In this document: positions 11,422 through 21,261 of the stretch, piece by piece
Layout: the number at the start of each line of letters is the position of its first letter
How positions within the stretch are numbered: position 1 is the stretch's first letter
Assembly (NCBI RefSeq): GCF_005081185.1
Contig: NZ_CP034870.1
Location: 223,884-245,144 of the forward strand
DNA from: Buchnera aphidicola (Lipaphis pseudobrassicae)
GTDB lineage: Bacteria > Pseudomonadota > Gammaproteobacteria > Enterobacterales > Enterobacteriaceae
Reading direction: 5' to 3'
Length of the DNA stretch: 21,261 bases
Position numbers and translations under genes: made by a program
Notes under the pieces: model-generated
The model's database searches: none
Told to the model about the DNA's origin: nothing
Seen by the model: only the letters and a program-made list of their open reading frames with translations

Positions 11422-12345
11422 TTAAAAATTTTTATTATTTATATTTAAAATTAGTAAAACTAATTTATCAAATGATATTCCAGCTTCTTTTGCTGCGATC
11501 GGAACTAAACTACGATTAGTCATACCTGGTATAGTATTTACTTCTAATAACCAGAATTTATTTTCGTGATCTAATATCACATCAATTCTTCCGCATCCTT
11601 TACAACCTAATATATTCCATGCTGAAATTGCTATTTCATTTAGTTTTTTTTCTTGTTTTATATTTAATTTACTAGGACATAAATATTCTGTAGAACTAGA
11701 TTTATATTTAGCATTATAGTCATAGAAACTATTTCTTGTAGAAATATTAATGATAGGCAATGTTTTTTGGTTTAAAATAGAAACTGTATATTCCTTACCT
11801 ATGATAAATTGTTCAATTAAAATGTCATCATTATAATTGGCAGCGAGATTAATGCCTTTACTAAGTTCTTTTGCAGAAGATACTAATGTAATTCCTATGC
11901 TAGATCCTTGATTATTTGGTTTTACTAAAACAGGAAATTTTAATTTTAATATTTGTTTTATTGCATAAGTATTTAATGGTATGGCATTTTTTTTAATATA
12001 CACATCTGGTATGATCGGTAAATTATGAGATTTCCACAATAATTTAGTTCTGAATTTATCTATAGATATTGCAGAAGCCATTATACCACTTCCTGTGTAA
12101 GGAATTTTCAAATATTCAAGAACTCCTTGAATACTACCATCTTCTCCTCCTTTACCATGTAATGCTATATATACTTTATCAAATTTTTCTTTTTTTAAAT
12201 CAGTAATAGAATAGTTATATGTGTCAATTGCATGTACATTAAAACCAGATTTTAATAAACTCTGAACTATATAGTTTCCTGACCGTATTGAAATTTCTCT
12301 TTCAGAAGATGTTCCACCTAATAAAACCGCTATTTTTTTTTTCAT
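11422..12345 (-). CDS. ddlB: D-alanine--D-alanine ligase
   Basis: ATP-grasp enzyme that makes the D-Ala-D-Ala dipeptide which MurF adds to the peptidoglycan precursor. It is 307 aa against 306 for E. coli DdlB. LLGGTSSEREIS (Glu15), ALHGKGGEDG (His63), VKPNNQGSSIGI (141-152), GKEYTVS and the C-terminal LLEVNTIPGMT with its Mg-binding Glu and Asn are all present. The start ATG has AGGAA about 5 bases before it. The coding sequence opens with an A10 run (12333-12342) directly after ATG, in frame (Lys-Lys-Lys), a potential slip site that has not caused a frameshift. It lies 20 nt after murC. Only one Ddl is seen in the window. Confidence 0.97.
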   Translation of the reverse strand: MKKKIAVLLGGTSSEREISIRSGNYIVQSLLKSGFNVHAIDTYNYSITDLKKEKFDKVYIALHGKGGEDGSIQGVLEYLKIPYTGSGIMASAISIDKFRTKLLWKSHNLPIIPDVYIKKNAIPLNTYAIKQILKLKFPVLVKPNNQGSSIGITLVSSAKELSKGINLAANYNDDILIEQFIIGKEYTVSILNQKTLPIINISTRNSFYDYNAKYKSSSTEYLCPSKLNIKQEKKLNEIAISAWNILGCKGCGRIDVILDHENKFWLLEVNTIPGMTNRSLVPIAAKEAGISFDKLVLLILNINNKNF

Positions 12346-12365: not shown

Positions 12366-13796
12366 TTAAATGAATATTTCTTTTATGATTTTATTGATAT
12401 TTCCTGCTCCTTGTATTAAAACAATATCGTTTCCTTTAAGCTTAGAAATAAGTGTATTTAATATAAATTTATGATTAGAAATGAAAGTTATATCAGTTTT
12501 TTTATTTTTTTTTATATCTTTATAAAGTGAATAGCTATCTGCTCCAGATATAAATTTTTCATTAGCAGAATATACATTTAGCATTAAAAGCGTATCGACT
12601 GTTGATAAAACTTTAACAAATTCATAATATAAATTATATGTTCTTGTATACCTATGTGGTTGAAATATCATTATTAAGTTTTTTTTAGGCCAACTAATTT
12701 TTATTGTTTGAATAGTTTCAGATAATTCTGTAGGATGATGTCCATAGTCATCTATCAACATAACACTATTGTTTTTGTTCTTTTTGTTTTTAATTGAAAA
12801 ACATCCAATATATTCAAATCTTCTAGAAGTACCTTGAAAGTATTTTAGTGCTGTAATTATATCATTTTTTTTTAATCCTTGATTTATAGAAAACGAAACA
12901 GCAGCTGCAGCATTGAGAGCATTATGCTTTCCTGGCATATTTAACGTGATATTTAATTTCATTTTGTTTTTTACAATTAATGTAAAATATCCTAGAAAAT
13001 AATGTTGTTGATAATTAACAATACGAACATCTGCATTTTTATCAAATCCATACGTTATAATTCTACATTTGATTTTAGAACAAATATTAGAAATAGGAAA
13101 ATTATCTATACATATTATAGCTGTTCCGTAGCAAGGTATTTTTTTTAAAAATTTTAAAAATGTTTCTGTTAACATTTTAAAATCATCATAGTAATCCATA
13201 TGGTCCCTTTCAATATTTGTAACAATAATTATAGATGGATTTAGATATAAAAATGAAGCATCACTTTCATCAGCTTCTACAATTAAGTACTCAGAATCAC
13301 CTAATTTTGCATGAGAATTAATAGATTTTATTAAACCTCCATTAATACAAGTTAAATTCATTCTACTTTTAACGCATATTTCTAAAATCATAGACGTAGT
13401 AGTAGTTTTACCATGTGTTCCAGCAATTGCTACTCCAGTTTTAAATTTCATTAATATTTGAAGCATTTCTGCTCTTAACAATATAGGAATATTATCTTTT
13501 TTTGCTGTAATTATTTCTTTATTGTCTAATTTAATAGCACTAGATTTAATAATCAGATCAGTATTTTTAACGTTTTTTTCAGAATGTTGAAAATATATTT
13601 TGGCTCCTAATTTAATTAGTTGTTTTGTCATTGTATTTTCTAATAAATCAGATCCACTGATTTTATAACCTAATTTTAATAAAATTAAAGCAAGGCCTCC
13701 CATTCCTGATCCACCAATACCAATAAAATGAATATTTTTTATTTTTTTTATATCATCAATAAAAAAATTAATATTTTTAATTTCTTTAATGTTCAT
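12366..13796 (-). CDS. murC: UDP-N-acetylmuramate--L-alanine ligase
   Basis: Adds L-alanine to UDP-MurNAc, the first of the four Mur ligase steps. It is 476 aa against 491 in E. coli, with the difference mainly at the C-terminus. The N-terminal UDP-binding fold has [12 protein letters not shown] (23-34). The central ATPase domain has the P-loop GTHGKTTTT (126-134), [10 protein letters not shown] and [23 protein letters not shown] and the C-terminal domain with [11 protein letters not shown] and FQPHRYTRT follow. The ATG start is not preceded by a clear ribosome binding site. It lies 52 nt after murG and 20 nt before ddlB. It appears intact and active. Confidence 0.98.
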
Positions 13797-16088: not shown

Positions 16089-17414
16089 TTAAGAAATTAT
16101 TTCTTTTGTAATTTTTGTAAAAAGATCACCTCTCTCTTCAAAACTAGAAAATTGATCTAAACTGCTGCATCCAGGAGATAAAAGCACTGTATCACCTGAT
16201 ACAACTTCTTTTTTAATTAATTGCATTGCTTGTGTTAAGGTGTTAACGTAGATAGATTTTTTTTTACATATTTTTGAAAGATATTCACCATCTTTTCCAA
16301 AACAGTAAATTTTTATTTTTAGTTTTTCAAAATTATTTTTCAATATGCTAAAATTTGCAGATTTTCTATCTCCACCTAATAGTAATCGTATTGTTCCTGT
16401 AATGTTTAAAGAATTTAAAGCTACTTGAGTACTGTTTACATTAGTAGATTTAGAATCATTGATCCACTCTATTCCTTTTGCTTTATGTATTACTTGAAAC
16501 CGATGTGGTAAACTTGAAAAATTTTTAATTACATCTATTACACAATTTCTGGGAAATTTCATCATATCAGAGATAGCTAAAGCAACTAATGCGTTTTCAT
16601 AATTGTGATAACCATATAATGATGTTTTTTTTAACTCAAATATTTTTTTGTTATTATGACATAATATAGCATTTTTTTTATTGCAATAAACTTGATAATC
16701 GCTTTTTTTTCCGCCAAAAGTAATCCATTTTTTAAAGTTTTTATTATAAATATTACTTTTTACTTGATGTTTTACATGTATAATACAAATTTCTGCTTTT
16801 TCATAAATAGATAATTTAGTTTCTTGATATTGTTTGAATCCTTTTGGATATCTATTGATATGATCTTCACTAATATTAAGTACTACAGCTATTTTTGATT
16901 TTAACATAAATATATTTTCTAGTTGAAAACTAGATAATTCCAATATATATAAGTCTGCTTTTTCATCAAGCATTTCTAAAGCAGGAATACCGATATTACC
17001 ACCTAACAGTGCTTTATAACCTGATTTTTTTGCAATTTTTTCAACCATCTTAGATACGGTACTTTTTCCATTAGTTCCTGTAATTGAAATGATAGGGATA
17101 TTTGTTTCTCTAGAAAATAATTCTATATCACTAATAATTTCAATTCCTAAAGAACGTGCATGAACTAAAATAGGTATGAAGGAAGAAATTCCTGGACTTA
17201 TAATAATTAAGTCTGATTCTAAAATCCATTTATGATTTAATGTTCCTAGACGATATTCAATATTTTTAGGTATTTTTTCTAAAAGAACAGGATGTTTAGA
17301 TTCATCAATAATTTTTGGCTTTACACCTTGTTTTAAAAAAAAATTAATACATGATATTCCTGTTAATCCCATTCCTAAGATTAATATTTTTTTATTAGAG
17401 TAATTATAGATCAT
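16089..17414 (-). CDS. murD: UDP-N-acetylmuramoyl-L-alanine--D-glutamate ligase
   Basis: Adds D-glutamate to UDP-MurNAc-L-Ala. I choose the ATG at 17412-17414, whose A is shared with the TGA stop of mraY (TGATG), a classic coupling overlap. Two TTG codons just upstream are in frame but less likely. The product is 441 aa against 438 in E. coli. It has the N-terminal LILGMGLTGISC fold, P-loop GTNGKST (113-119), LELSSFQLE, NISEDHINRYP with the metal-binding acidic/His group, YENALVALAI and the C-terminal NDSKSTN and LLLGGDRK, ending in LLSPGCSSLDQFSSFEERG. All key motifs are present. ftsW follows after 38 nt. Confidence 0.97.
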   Translation of the reverse strand: MIYNYSNKKILILGMGLTGISCINFFLKQGVKPKIIDESKHPVLLEKIPKNIEYRLGTLNHKWILESDLIIISPGISSFIPILVHARSLGIEIISDIELFSRETNIPIISITGTNGKSTVSKMVEKIAKKSGYKALLGGNIGIPALEMLDEKADLYILELSSFQLENIFMLKSKIAVVLNISEDHINRYPKGFKQYQETKLSIYEKAEICIIHVKHQVKSNIYNKNFKKWITFGGKKSDYQVYCNKKNAILCHNNKKIFELKKTSLYGYHNYENALVALAISDMMKFPRNCVIDVIKNFSSLPHRFQVIHKAKGIEWINDSKSTNVNSTQVALNSLNITGTIRLLLGGDRKSANFSILKNNFEKLKIKIYCFGKDGEYLSKICKKKSIYVNTLTQAMQLIKKEVVSGDTVLLSPGCSSLDQFSSFEERGDLFTKITKEIIS

Positions 17415-18484
17415 CAACAAACCTTTAAAGATATAAGACTGATTAACAGTAATATCAATGAAATAATCCAGAATCTTACAACTATTATAGGTTCTAATAT
17501 TCCTTTCATTTCATAATGATGATGAATTGGAGCCATTTTAAAAATTCTTTTCTTTCTGATTTTAAATGATATAATTTGCAAAATAACAGATATAGTTTCA
17601 AATACAAATACGCCTCCCATTATTATTAGCAATAACTCTTGATGCAATAGTATTGCCATTGTTCCTAAACATCCTCCTAATGATAAAGATCCAATATCTC
17701 CCATAAATATTTTTGCAGGATAACTATTGAACCATAAAAATCCTAATCCCGATCCAATAATTGCAGTACATAATACAACTAATTCATTTGAATTTTGTAT
17801 ATAATCTACATTTAAATAATTAGAATTTTTTATGTCAATACTTAGTAAAGATATTAACGTAAAACCACATGCTAATAGAATCACAGGCATAATAGCTAAA
17901 CCATCTAATCCGTCTGTTAAATTCACTGCATTACTAGTACCAACAATAACAAAATAAGATAGAAATATATGTAAATAATTGATTTCAATATTTTTTTTAA
18001 AAAAAGGAATTATTAATTGAGTAGAAATAACTTTTTCACTATCGTTATACATTGTATAAATTATTCCTAAAGCAACAATAGACAATAAAAAATATTTACA
18101 AAAAGGTGTTAATCCCCAAGAATTATTATATTTTATTTTTTTGTAATCATCTAAATAACCAATCAAACCATATGAGAGCAAAACACTTATAACATACCAA
18201 ACATAATTGTTAGATAAATCACAGTATAAAATTGTTGAAACTACTATAGAAATTATAATAAATAAACCACCAATAGTAGGGGTATTATTTTTCGTATAAT
18301 GGTTTTTAGGTCCATTTTTTCTTATTATTTGGTATTGTTGTATTTTTCTAAAAAATTTTATAAAATAAGGTCCAATAAACAAATTTATAAAAAAAGCAGT
18401 TAATAAACTAAATATTGCACGAAATGAAATATAAGAAATATTATTAGAATAATTATTTAGATATTTATACCACCAAATTAACAT
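17414..18484 (-). CDS. mraY: Phospho-MurNAc-pentapeptide translocase MraY
   Basis: Integral membrane enzyme that attaches phospho-MurNAc-pentapeptide to undecaprenyl phosphate, making lipid I. It is 356 aa against 360 in E. coli, with about ten transmembrane helices. The start MLIWWYKYLNN matches E. coli. Family motifs include the paired Asp of YLDDYKKI, the NAVNLTDGLDGLA nucleophile/Mg region, GFLWFNSYPAKIFMGDIGS, and the histidine segment MAPIHHHYE. It overlaps the 3' end of murF by 20 nt and shares its last base with the murD ATG. Because murF is frameshifted upstream, translation coupled to the murF 3' end may depend on how many ribosomes get past the frameshift. Confidence 0.98.
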   Translation of the reverse strand: MLIWWYKYLNNYSNNISYISFRAIFSLLTAFFINLFIGPYFIKFFRKIQQYQIIRKNGPKNHYTKNNTPTIGGLFIIISIVVSTILYCDLSNNYVWYVISVLLSYGLIGYLDDYKKIKYNNSWGLTPFCKYFLLSIVALGIIYTMYNDSEKVISTQLIIPFFKKNIEINYLHIFLSYFVIVGTSNAVNLTDGLDGLAIMPVILLACGFTLISLLSIDIKNSNYLNVDYIQNSNELVVLCTAIIGSGLGFLWFNSYPAKIFMGDIGSLSLGGCLGTMAILLHQELLLIIMGGVFVFETISVILQIISFKIRKKRIFKMAPIHHHYEMKGILEPIIVVRFWIISLILLLISLISLKVC

Positions 18485-19843
18485 GTTCTTGACTCTCTTT
18501 AATTAAATTTTGTACTATTTTCTCCATTTTTGCATTTCGAGAACCTTTAACTAAAATTGTAATTTTTTCTCTTTCAAAAAAAATTTTTTTTAAATATTTA
18601 TTTAATTTTTCTTTTGTAAAAAAATGTTTACCATTATTAAATGTTTTACTTATTTCATAACTTCTATTACCAATAGTAAGAATTTCATCTATATTAGATA
18701 AATTTGCAATATTTCCTATCATTTTATGATATAAAATACTTTTTTCTCCTAATTCAGACATATCTCCTGTAACTAATATTTTATATTTTGGCATATTTTC
18801 TAATACTTTAATCGCTGCAATCATAGACGAAACATTAGCATTATAAGTATCATTTATTAAAATTTTATGAGGTTTTAATTGAATCAGCTCGAGTCTTCCA
18901 GATACAATAGGAGTTTTTAATAGTCCATTTTTTATTTTTTTTAAAGGTATGTTAATAGAGAAAGCTAGTGCAGTTGCGGCTAATACATTAGATATACTTT
19001 GATAGCCTAAAAAAGGTAACGAAATATTTATTGTTCCAGAGGGTGTATGTATTGTAAAAGAAGTACCATATCTATGAATTTTAATATTACTAGAAAAAAA
19101 GTTACTGAGTTTTTTTTTTTAATAGAAAAGTATAAAATATTTTTTTTTTGTATTTTTTTTTTCCAACTGGAAAGATGATGACTATCTAAGTTTATAACTA
19201 CTGTACCATGATTTTTTAATCCAGAGAATATTTCTGATTTTGCATTAGATACTCCTATAAGTGATTTAAATCCTTTTAAATGAGCATAATAGATATTATT
19301 TATTAATACAACTTCTGGTTGACTAATATTACTAGTATAGAAAATTTCACCTGGTTGATTAGCACCTAATTCAATTACACCATATTGGTGTTCTAACGTA
19401 AGTTTTAATAAAGTAATAGGAACACCGATATTATTATTTAAATTTCCAGTGGTAGATATTGTTTTTCCATTTTGTGCTAATATAGAAGCTGTCATTTCTT
19501 TGACAGAAGTTTTACCACACGAACCTGTAATAGCTAATATTTTTGCATTGGTTATTTTTCTAATCCAAGAAGCAATTTGACCTAAAGCCATAGATGTATT
19601 TTTTACTACAATATAAGAAATGCAATATTTTATTTTTTTTTGTGTTATAACTGCAGAACATCCTTGAGAAATAGCATCTTTTATAAAAATATGAGCATCA
19701 AATTTTTTACCTATTAACGCAATAAACAAACAATCTGGAACAACTTTTTTGGTATCAATAACTATGTGATTTATTATTAAGTCTGATCCATATAAATTTC
19801 CGTTAATAATTTTAGCTATTTTTTTTAAGGATAGAGAAATCAT
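18465..19843 (-). CDS. murF: UDP-MurNAc-tripeptide--D-Ala-D-Ala ligase, split by a frameshift at an A11 run
   Basis: Adds D-Ala-D-Ala to UDP-MurNAc-tripeptide. The first frame (19843 to 19028, 271 codons) matches MurF to about residue 244: start MISLSLKKIAKIINGNL, P-loop ITGSCGKTS (107-113), TGNLNNNIGVP, IELGANQPGEI. After the A11 run (19110-19120) it becomes unrelated and stops 27 residues later. From that run on, homology continues in the -1 frame (LSNFFSSNIKIHRYGTSF, TPSGTINISLPFLGYQSISN, SGRLELIQL, NDTYNANVSSM, VTGDMSELGEK, LVKGSRNAKM) to the stop at 18465, with no stop in between. With 12 A, or a -1 slip, the product is 459 aa against 452 in E. coli. Everything else is conserved, so it is probably functional through slippage; a true pseudogene or a one-base sequencing error remain possible. 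Confidence 0.95.
19110..19120 (-). other. A11 slippage site in murF
   Basis: Eleven consecutive A on the coding strand, directly between the last homologous codon of the first frame (Ile-Lys-Lys-Lys, residue about 241-244) and the first of the second frame (Leu-Ser-Asn). It contains the A-AAA-AAA heptamer on which E. coli ribosomes shift by -1, and runs of this length also make RNA polymerase add or drop A. Adding one A restores the gene. It is the longest homopolymer I found in any coding region of the window. Confidence 0.85.
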
Positions 19844-21261
19844 GTTTTTTTTCCAATAAATTTAAAACTGTTGCTTCATCTGAATAATTAATACATTTGT
19901 CTTGAATAATTTGTATTTTTTCATGACCTTTTCCTGCTATAAAAATTATATGATTTAGTTTTGATTGATAAAAAGCATAATGTATTGCTTTTTTTCTATT
20001 TAGAATTGTTAATATATTTTTTTTTTGACAGCCCATTAATATATCGTTAATAATATTCATTTCTTTTTCATTTCTTGGATTGTCATTTGTAAGAATGATT
20101 TTATCTGCTATTTTTTCTGCTATAGAACCCATTATAGGACGTTTTTTTTTATCTCTTTCACCTCCACATCCAAATATACACCATATGTAATTTTTATGAT
20201 AATGTAAACGAATTGTGGTAAGTGCTTTTTCTAATGCATCAGGAGTATGTGCATAATCAATAATAAAAATTGGTTGTTTATTACGAATAAAAATTTGCAT
20301 TCGACCATTTATAGGTTTTATTGAACGAGATGTTGCAATTAAGTTTGATATATCATGACCTAATTCTAAAAGAGAAGCTAATGATAATAATAAATTTATA
20401 ACATTAAATTTTCCTATTAAACAAGATGATAAATTTCCTTCTCCCCAACTTGATTCAAATCTAATATTAGTTGAATTTTTTTCATATTTAACTTTAGTAG
20501 CGTTTATCCATTTTTTTGCATATTGTTTTTGTTTATTGTCTTTAATAGTAACAGCTACAGTGTGATAATTAAATAATTTTTTTAACCATATTTTTCCATA
20601 TTCATCATTTGCATTTAATATGATTTTTCTTACCGAATGTGTGCTAAATAATAACCATTTTGCTAATTCATATTGTTTCATATTTTTATGATAATCTAAA
20701 TGATCTTGACTAAGATTTGTAAATATTCCAATTTCAAAAGGAATACTTTTAACACGATGTTGTATTAAACCATGTGATGAAACTTCCATAGTAACTAATT
20801 TAGTTTTTTTTTCTAACATCATTTGTAAAAATGATTGTATGTAAATAGCTGAAGGTGTTGTATTTTTTGTTGGGTATAACGAATTATAAAAACCGTTTCC
20901 TAGTGTTCCAATAGTTGCTGTTTTAGTTCCTAAGATTTCACTCCATTGATTAATTAAATGCGTTACAGTAGTTTTCCCGTTAGTTCCAGTAACACCAATA
21001 ATTTTTATTTTTTTTCCCGGTTGTTTATAAAAACGACCTGCTAACATTGAAATGTTTTCAGAAAGTTTAAAAAAATATATAATAGGAATTTCATTAATAA
21101 AATGATATAATCCATGATTTTCTTTTTTTTTTGTTTCACATAAAATTGCAGCTGCTTTTTTGGTAATAGCATCAAAAATAAAATTACGTCCATCTGTTTT
21201 TATTCCTGAAACAGCTATAAATAAACTTCCTTTTATTAAATTTCTACTATCTATATTTAAA
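19812..21261 (-). CDS. murE: UDP-MurNAc-L-Ala-D-Glu--meso-diaminopimelate ligase (5' end outside window)
   Basis: Adds meso-diaminopimelate to the peptidoglycan precursor. The frame is open to the window edge: upstream of an internal ATG at 21047, 71 further codons continue (LNIDSRN, GSLFIAVSG, KTDGRNFI) and align with E. coli MurE from about residue 25, so about 24 codons including the start lie beyond 21261. 482 residues are visible. P-loop GVTGTNGKTT, NTTPSA, MEVSSHGL, SQDHLDYH and DYAHTPDAL are present. The DNPR motif (LTNDNPRNE) marks specificity for meso-diaminopimelate rather than lysine. The 3' end overlaps murF by 32 nt. An in-frame A10 run (21123-21132) has not shifted the frame. 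Confidence 0.97.
   Translation of the reverse strand, partial: LNIDSRNLIKGSLFIAVSGIKTDGRNFIFDAITKKAAAILCETKKKENHGLYHFINEIPIIYFFKLSENISMLAGRFYKQPGKKIKIIGVTGTNGKTTVTHLINQWSEILGTKTATIGTLGNGFYNSLYPTKNTTPSAIYIQSFLQMMLEKKTKLVTMEVSSHGLIQHRVKSIPFEIGIFTNLSQDHLDYHKNMKQYELAKWLLFSTHSVRKIILNANDEYGKIWLKKLFNYHTVAVTIKDNKQKQYAKKWINATKVKYEKNSTNIRFESSWGEGNLSSCLIGKFNVINLLLSLASLLELGHDISNLIATSRSIKPINGRMQIFIRNKQPIFIIDYAHTPDALEKALTTIRLHYHKNYIWCIFGCGGERDKKKRPIMGSIAEKIADKIILTNDNPRNEKEMNIINDILMGCQKKNILTILNRKKAIHYAFYQSKLNHIIFIAGKGHEKIQIIQDKCINYSDEATVLNLLEKKHDFSILKKNS

Follow-up and report, generated by a model that had tools for sequence, protein, structure and literature searches.

A murF gene one base short at a poly(A) tract in most sampled Buchnera genomes is probably rescued by transcriptional slippage

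Runs of adenines, such as that in A_AAA_AAG, are used in programmed frameshifting or slippage of the dnaX type. In Buchnera and Blochmannia, slips of RNA polymerase at poly(A) tracts reportedly restore the output of frameshifted genes, and in the work ascribed to Tamas et al. (PNAS, 2008) MurF itself is said to have been immunostained and full-length protein detected in another Buchnera. Rescue of this kind is summarised in passages of PMC5009743, PMC3164680 and PMC3017870, and for Buchnera cell-wall genes it is already known in print. PMC3017870 also describes ancient homopolymer frameshifts that have been maintained in Blochmannia (Wernegreen et al. 2010, as cited there). At the same time, murF is listed as inactivated or lost in Buchnera in parts of PMC3164680 and PMC9116674; the homopolymer frameshift considered here is the same, but it is read as belonging to a retained gene. 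The present locus shares with the system of Tamas et al. a Buchnera cell-wall gene, a single frameshift at a long A run and a constrained protein. It differs in that the earlier system is another Buchnera (that of R. padi, according to a passage of PMC3164680), while here 35 genomes are compared, the phase of the frameshift is seen to be shared and selection is measured after the frameshift, including on the strain's own branch. As in Blochmannia, the out-of-frame state is common to several species without decay; unlike it, another symbiont and other genes are involved, and the states of Buchnera murF at the tips fit persistence and recurrence alike. What is new is the breadth of the phenomenon, the shared phase, the selection on the downstream half (own branch included), the similar frameshifts in murC, murE and ddlB, and a candidate explanation for the cell wall of Aphidini Buchnera.

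The genome under study comprises 652 kb in three contigs and is that of a Buchnera by its content and relatives. The window, i.e., the whole stretch of 21,261 nucleotides that was analysed, carries a dcw cluster running from murE to ftsZ on the minus strand (Table 1), in which the nine genes other than murF are open over their length, murE being cut by the window end. murF occupies positions 18465-19843 of the minus strand. The preliminary description of this DNA had stated that MurF homology passes to the -1 frame at a run of 11 A, and frameshift-aware alignment against the intact MurF of another Buchnera (G029) bears this out: there is one frame change, located at the run, which is exactly 11 T on the plus strand and hence A11 in murF, with neither an internal stop nor any other lesion. 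The 271-residue zero-frame product matches the families NF008041 and TIGR01143, with scores below the curated whole-protein cut-offs, as expected for a half. Starting just within the run, the -1 frame stays open until it meets a stop at 18465-18467, and its ATG-initiated part matches profile positions 341-449 of NF008041. As in the endosymbiont genes reported to be rescued by slippage, a single frameshift thus lies inside a run of at least nine A or T in a gene that is otherwise whole. The loop encoded by the tract is gapped in the alignment with E. coli MurF (1gg4) and variable among outgroups; because the tract lies in a variable loop, an extra lysine is probably harmless.

Table 1. Positions in the window of murF, its parts and neighbouring dcw genes.
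Feature	Positions	Strand	Remarks
murE ORF	19812-21047	-	from first start inside the window (cut by window end); open
murF zero-frame ORF	19028-19843	-	residues 1-250 match MurF, followed by 21 out-of-frame residues
A11 run	19110-19120	-	site of frame change, gene one base short; from sequence and genus-wide alignment
murF -1-frame continuation	18465-19118	-	covers the G029 reference from residue 242 or so onward; no internal stop
-1-frame part from first ATG/GTG/TTG	18465-18824	-	starts some 98 residues past the run, at reference residue 340
mraY	17414-18484	-	open; start overlaps murF stop
murD	16089-17420	-	open
murC	12366-13796	-	open here; frameshifted at A runs in 15/35 genomes
ddlB	11422-12345	-	open here; frameshifted at A run in 7/35 genomes

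Far from being peculiar to this strain, the offset is found through much of the genus. A MurF family search of 36 genomes of the genus returned a match in 35, the sole genome without any being G024 (contig C1 of 587,277 bases). Among these 35 genomes, murF is in frame in six (G004, G013, G022, G026, G029 and G034), one base short at the same tract in 28, this genome included, and in the opposite phase in one (G030, which has an A14 run). An uninterrupted run of 9-13 A is kept in all 28 one-short copies, none of the 29 split copies contains an internal stop, and a second murF frameshift was found only in G018, again at an A11 run. A frame change at the tract, present in 29 of 35 genomes as against no frameshift in 238 copies of seven neighbouring control genes, is commoner than expected by chance. 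At the level of the family, murF matches exceeded the curated cut-off in 129 of 149 sampled genomes (this genome and G024 included), and by eye the 22 of these 129 with genomes of at most 0.9 Mb all carry murF in one frame. Likewise by eye, ten outgroups, one of them putatively the Buchnera of Baizongia pistaciae, have murF in frame, with at most nine A at the site of the run.

Homopolymers are error-prone, and the missing base might in principle be a sequencing or assembly error; this alternative, which the preliminary description had itself raised, is very unlikely, to the point of being negligible. The same state is found in 27 other assemblies, three of which (G002, G016 and G001) are putatively those of A. 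kondoi, U. ambrosiae and S. graminum, in all of which PMC3164680 gives murF as frameshifted in a homopolymer; the murF states in that paper match for these three and for A. pisum Tokyo, putatively G029. Moreover, 14 of the 16 other coding runs of at least 11 A in this genome are in frame, as judged by eye from the 3-5 kb around each run. Buchnera is polyploid, and some of its many chromosome copies might carry the in-frame length and supply MurF. Two Buchnera samples have indeed been reported to be polymorphic for single-base indels, and the frame of murF is not the same in all A. pisum strains (both in PMC3164680), but such a mixture is decidedly unlikely to explain the pattern, the consensus being out of frame in 29 of 35 assemblies, so that in-frame copies would be a minority almost everywhere. 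To regard murF as a recent pseudogene on its way out would follow common practice, in which homopolymer frameshifts are taken as recent inactivations, and would agree with the four independent murF inactivations inferred in Degnan 2011, with the lack of a murF match in G024, a member of the same genus, and with a slight, borderline relaxation of selection in non-intact branches. We give this reading a small chance at best, since 28 of the 29 split copies carry no further lesion and the sequence after the tract has remained under strong constraint.

Indeed, under a codon model on the species tree, omega in 13 species that are all split is 0.083 before the tract and 0.111 after it, to be compared with 0.078 for murG, 0.088 for murD and 0.109 for mraY, and on this strain's own branch it is 0.083 after the tract. 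For the part after the tract, setting omega to 1 worsens the fit by 287 lnL units in the 13 split species and by 105 on this strain's tip. The five intact tips of this strain's clade are marginally more constrained there than the other branches (0.083 vs 0.105, lnL difference 1.86, p 0.054), and the same trend is seen before the tract (0.063 vs 0.076). Under neutral simulation, all 100 replicates had stops in 13 of 13 copies, also when the fitted divergence was cut to a quarter, whereas 0 of the 13 real copies contain one. Positions that are invariant in ten other enterics are kept about equally in the split C halves (1343/1711 cells, 78%) and in intact ones (274/354, 77%). Purifying selection thus persists after the frameshift, as in slippage-rescued genes, and neither accumulating lesions nor relaxed selection, beyond the borderline trend in non-intact branches, was found in murF. 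The dN/dS of both halves against other Buchnera had been proposed as a check in the preliminary description, and its outcome, with both halves strongly constrained and the 3′ half not relaxed beyond the borderline, supports the accompanying claims that both halves are conserved and that the gene is rescued rather than simply lost. These tests assume lineages that have been split for most of the branches tested; if all the splits were very recent, the low omega could be inherited from in-frame ancestors, a scenario in which separate recent hits would have to be about as numerous as the split species. Because of the constraint after the tract and the absence of stops as compared with the neutral simulation, we conclude, as far as sequence evolution can tell, that the product of the 3′ part of murF is used.

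Use of the 3′ part might also be achieved if the two halves were separate proteins made by internal re-initiation, and most split copies do have an ATG in the C frame at reference residue 264, about 20 codons after the tract. In this strain, however, the -1 frame contains no ATG, GTG or TTG before residue 340, and residues 252-339, which lie beyond the reach of any internal start here and would be missing from a re-initiated product, show an omega of 0.062 on this tip (0.075 on the five tips without the 264 ATG). Re-initiation is barely credible on these grounds, and because these residues are constrained while no start occurs until residue 340, a tract-spanning protein is most likely made in this strain. 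Two mechanisms could read a gene in this phase, transcripts being lengthened by one A or ribosomes shifting by -1, and the preliminary description had left the choice between them open. Ribosomes might shift by -1 at A_AAA_AAA or A_AAA_AAG on a faithful mRNA with 11 A: the direction fits, A_AAA_AAA can be read by eye in the zero frame of this strain's tract, as for the slippery heptamer of dnaX-type frameshifting, 12 of the 28 one-short copies have A_AAA_AAG in that frame of the tract, as dnaX does, and some shifting can occur on a bare slippery run even where stimulators are lacking. The likeness to dnaX ends there, since neither of the stimulatory elements of that type of frameshifting, an upstream Shine-Dalgarno (SD) motif or a downstream structure, was found: none of the 35 copies has an SD-like motif within 30 bases upstream, and the fold of the 70 bases downstream is no more stable than that of shuffled sequences (z between -2.3 and 1.6, G014 being the only copy below -2, with simple mononucleotide shuffles). 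A ribosomal shift is accordingly an unlikely source of the full-length protein.

Of the two slips, that of RNA polymerase is the better supported, and within rescue, the addition of one A to the transcript is favoured over a ribosomal signal because no SD-like motif or unusual fold is present, because transcription in Buchnera is reported to insert bases in A/T runs, and because corrected transcripts have been reported. PMC5574713 places 151 of 157 Buchnera transcription insertions in homopolymer runs, all of A or T, with a rate that rises exponentially with run length up to 11, and PMC5009743 gives 12-50% corrected transcripts for frameshifted genes, Buchnera cell-wall genes among them. Against this, Traverse and Ochman (2017) state that no frame-restoring transcription error was found in Buchnera. 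Altogether, we consider it likely that murF is a working gene rescued by RNA polymerase adding an A at the A11 run, such that part of the mRNA would encode full-length MurF. The slippage step, its yield and the function of the enzyme in this strain are what we infer. In such a model, murF DNA is one base short at the run, on which RNA polymerase would slip backward and add an A in a sizeable share of the transcripts; the corrected mRNAs would be translated into full-length MurF, the remainder into the truncated 271-residue product. Enough MurF would be made to keep both halves under ordinary purifying selection, with the one-short state persisting or recurring across the genus.

Parsimony on the tip states requires 7 changes with either root state, in frame or one short, and a loss-only model, with 9 changes, gives a fit no worse than that of a reversible one. 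Either the split is old and would have been reversed several times, or the same tract would have been hit repeatedly in the same phase, the latter view being taken for four lineages in Degnan 2011. A sign test on phase, from a hand count in which losses are taken as irreversible, sets about 32 one-short origins against 4 others (4/36, p = 1.9e-6). This skew is no evidence for rescue, because deletion-biased replication slippage would give the same skew and could be the origin of the one-short bias.

The ten dcw genes were surveyed in 35 genomes (350 copies) by genus-wide frameshift alignment with this genome's nine other dcw genes as references, to which most other genomes align without frameshift. 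Alignment end effects were seen at murE 397-401 and ddlB 300-304, and calls from residue 390 on in murE and from residue 298 on in ddlB were dropped as reference end effects. The survey yielded 63 frameshift calls (murF 30, murC 15, murE 7, ddlB 7, murD 2, mraY 1 and ftsW 1), with zero in murG, ftsA and ftsZ in the 35 genomes; 59 are one base short and 4 of another kind, and 60 lie on A runs of at least 9, 2 on T runs (10 and 8) and 1 on no long run. The control genes mentioned above (aceE, aceF, lpd, speD, speE, pfs and erpA, with pfs and erpA at 0/35 each) adjoin the far side of the cluster. Their A runs of at least 9 number 125, as against 370 in the dcw genes, and those of at least 11 number 5 vs 63; because only 5 are so long, the contrast between dcw and control genes is partly one of opportunity. 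In 10 of 35 genomes, murC is one base short at one A run, around residues 94-104 (loci L125-L159); close sisters have it in frame, as though the gene toggled back and forth.

It may be speculated, though we regard this as rather doubtful, that Buchnera holds murF, murC, murE and ddlB out of frame, in the phase that transcript insertion corrects, as a maintained and heritable set-point. In a genome with few regulators, the tract would then act as a transcript-level throttle on wall synthesis, and lineages would switch between full and throttled output by single-base changes in its length.

Rescue by transcriptional slippage as such, with or without a set-point, bears on the reported gene content of Aphidini Buchnera. 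These are described in PMC9116674 as being without murF, murC and/or murE, yet the Buchnera of R. maidis, which according to that paper has none of the three, takes up a wall label; the labelled aphid line, Rma-NM-1, need not be the sequenced one. The pipeline described there discarded coding sequences with internal stops or frameshifts, and the main text contains no mention of slippage, homopolymer, infidelity or Tamas. In the candidate R. maidis Buchnera of our sample (G007, locus L132), murC, murE and murF are all kept, each one base short at an A10 run. Rescued murC, murE and murF could resolve the puzzle of a walled R. maidis symbiont without new enzymes, an explanation drawn from gene sequences; a link between slippage and this puzzle was not found in the open literature searched. 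These ligases are scored as lost whenever a survey of gene content discards frameshifted genes, and the present data suggest that a gene with a shared one-base offset in a long A run is not to be counted as lost. murD of the same genome may also lack one base, at a T8 run, although faulty assembly could account for this.

Some further runs were noted in the genome under study. lolE shows a split of the same phase as murF, likewise at an A11 run (L199:1113-2359, corresponding to about 327112-328358 of G000:C1; family-checked); across the genus, lolE is split in 9 of 36 genomes and lolC is whole in 36 of 36. By eye, cysH too seems to lack one base, at an A11 run some 17 codons into the gene (G000:C1:465180-465190, minus strand, L202). 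The longest A run noticed in this genome is an A21 at G000:C1:612416-612436, seemingly outside genes.
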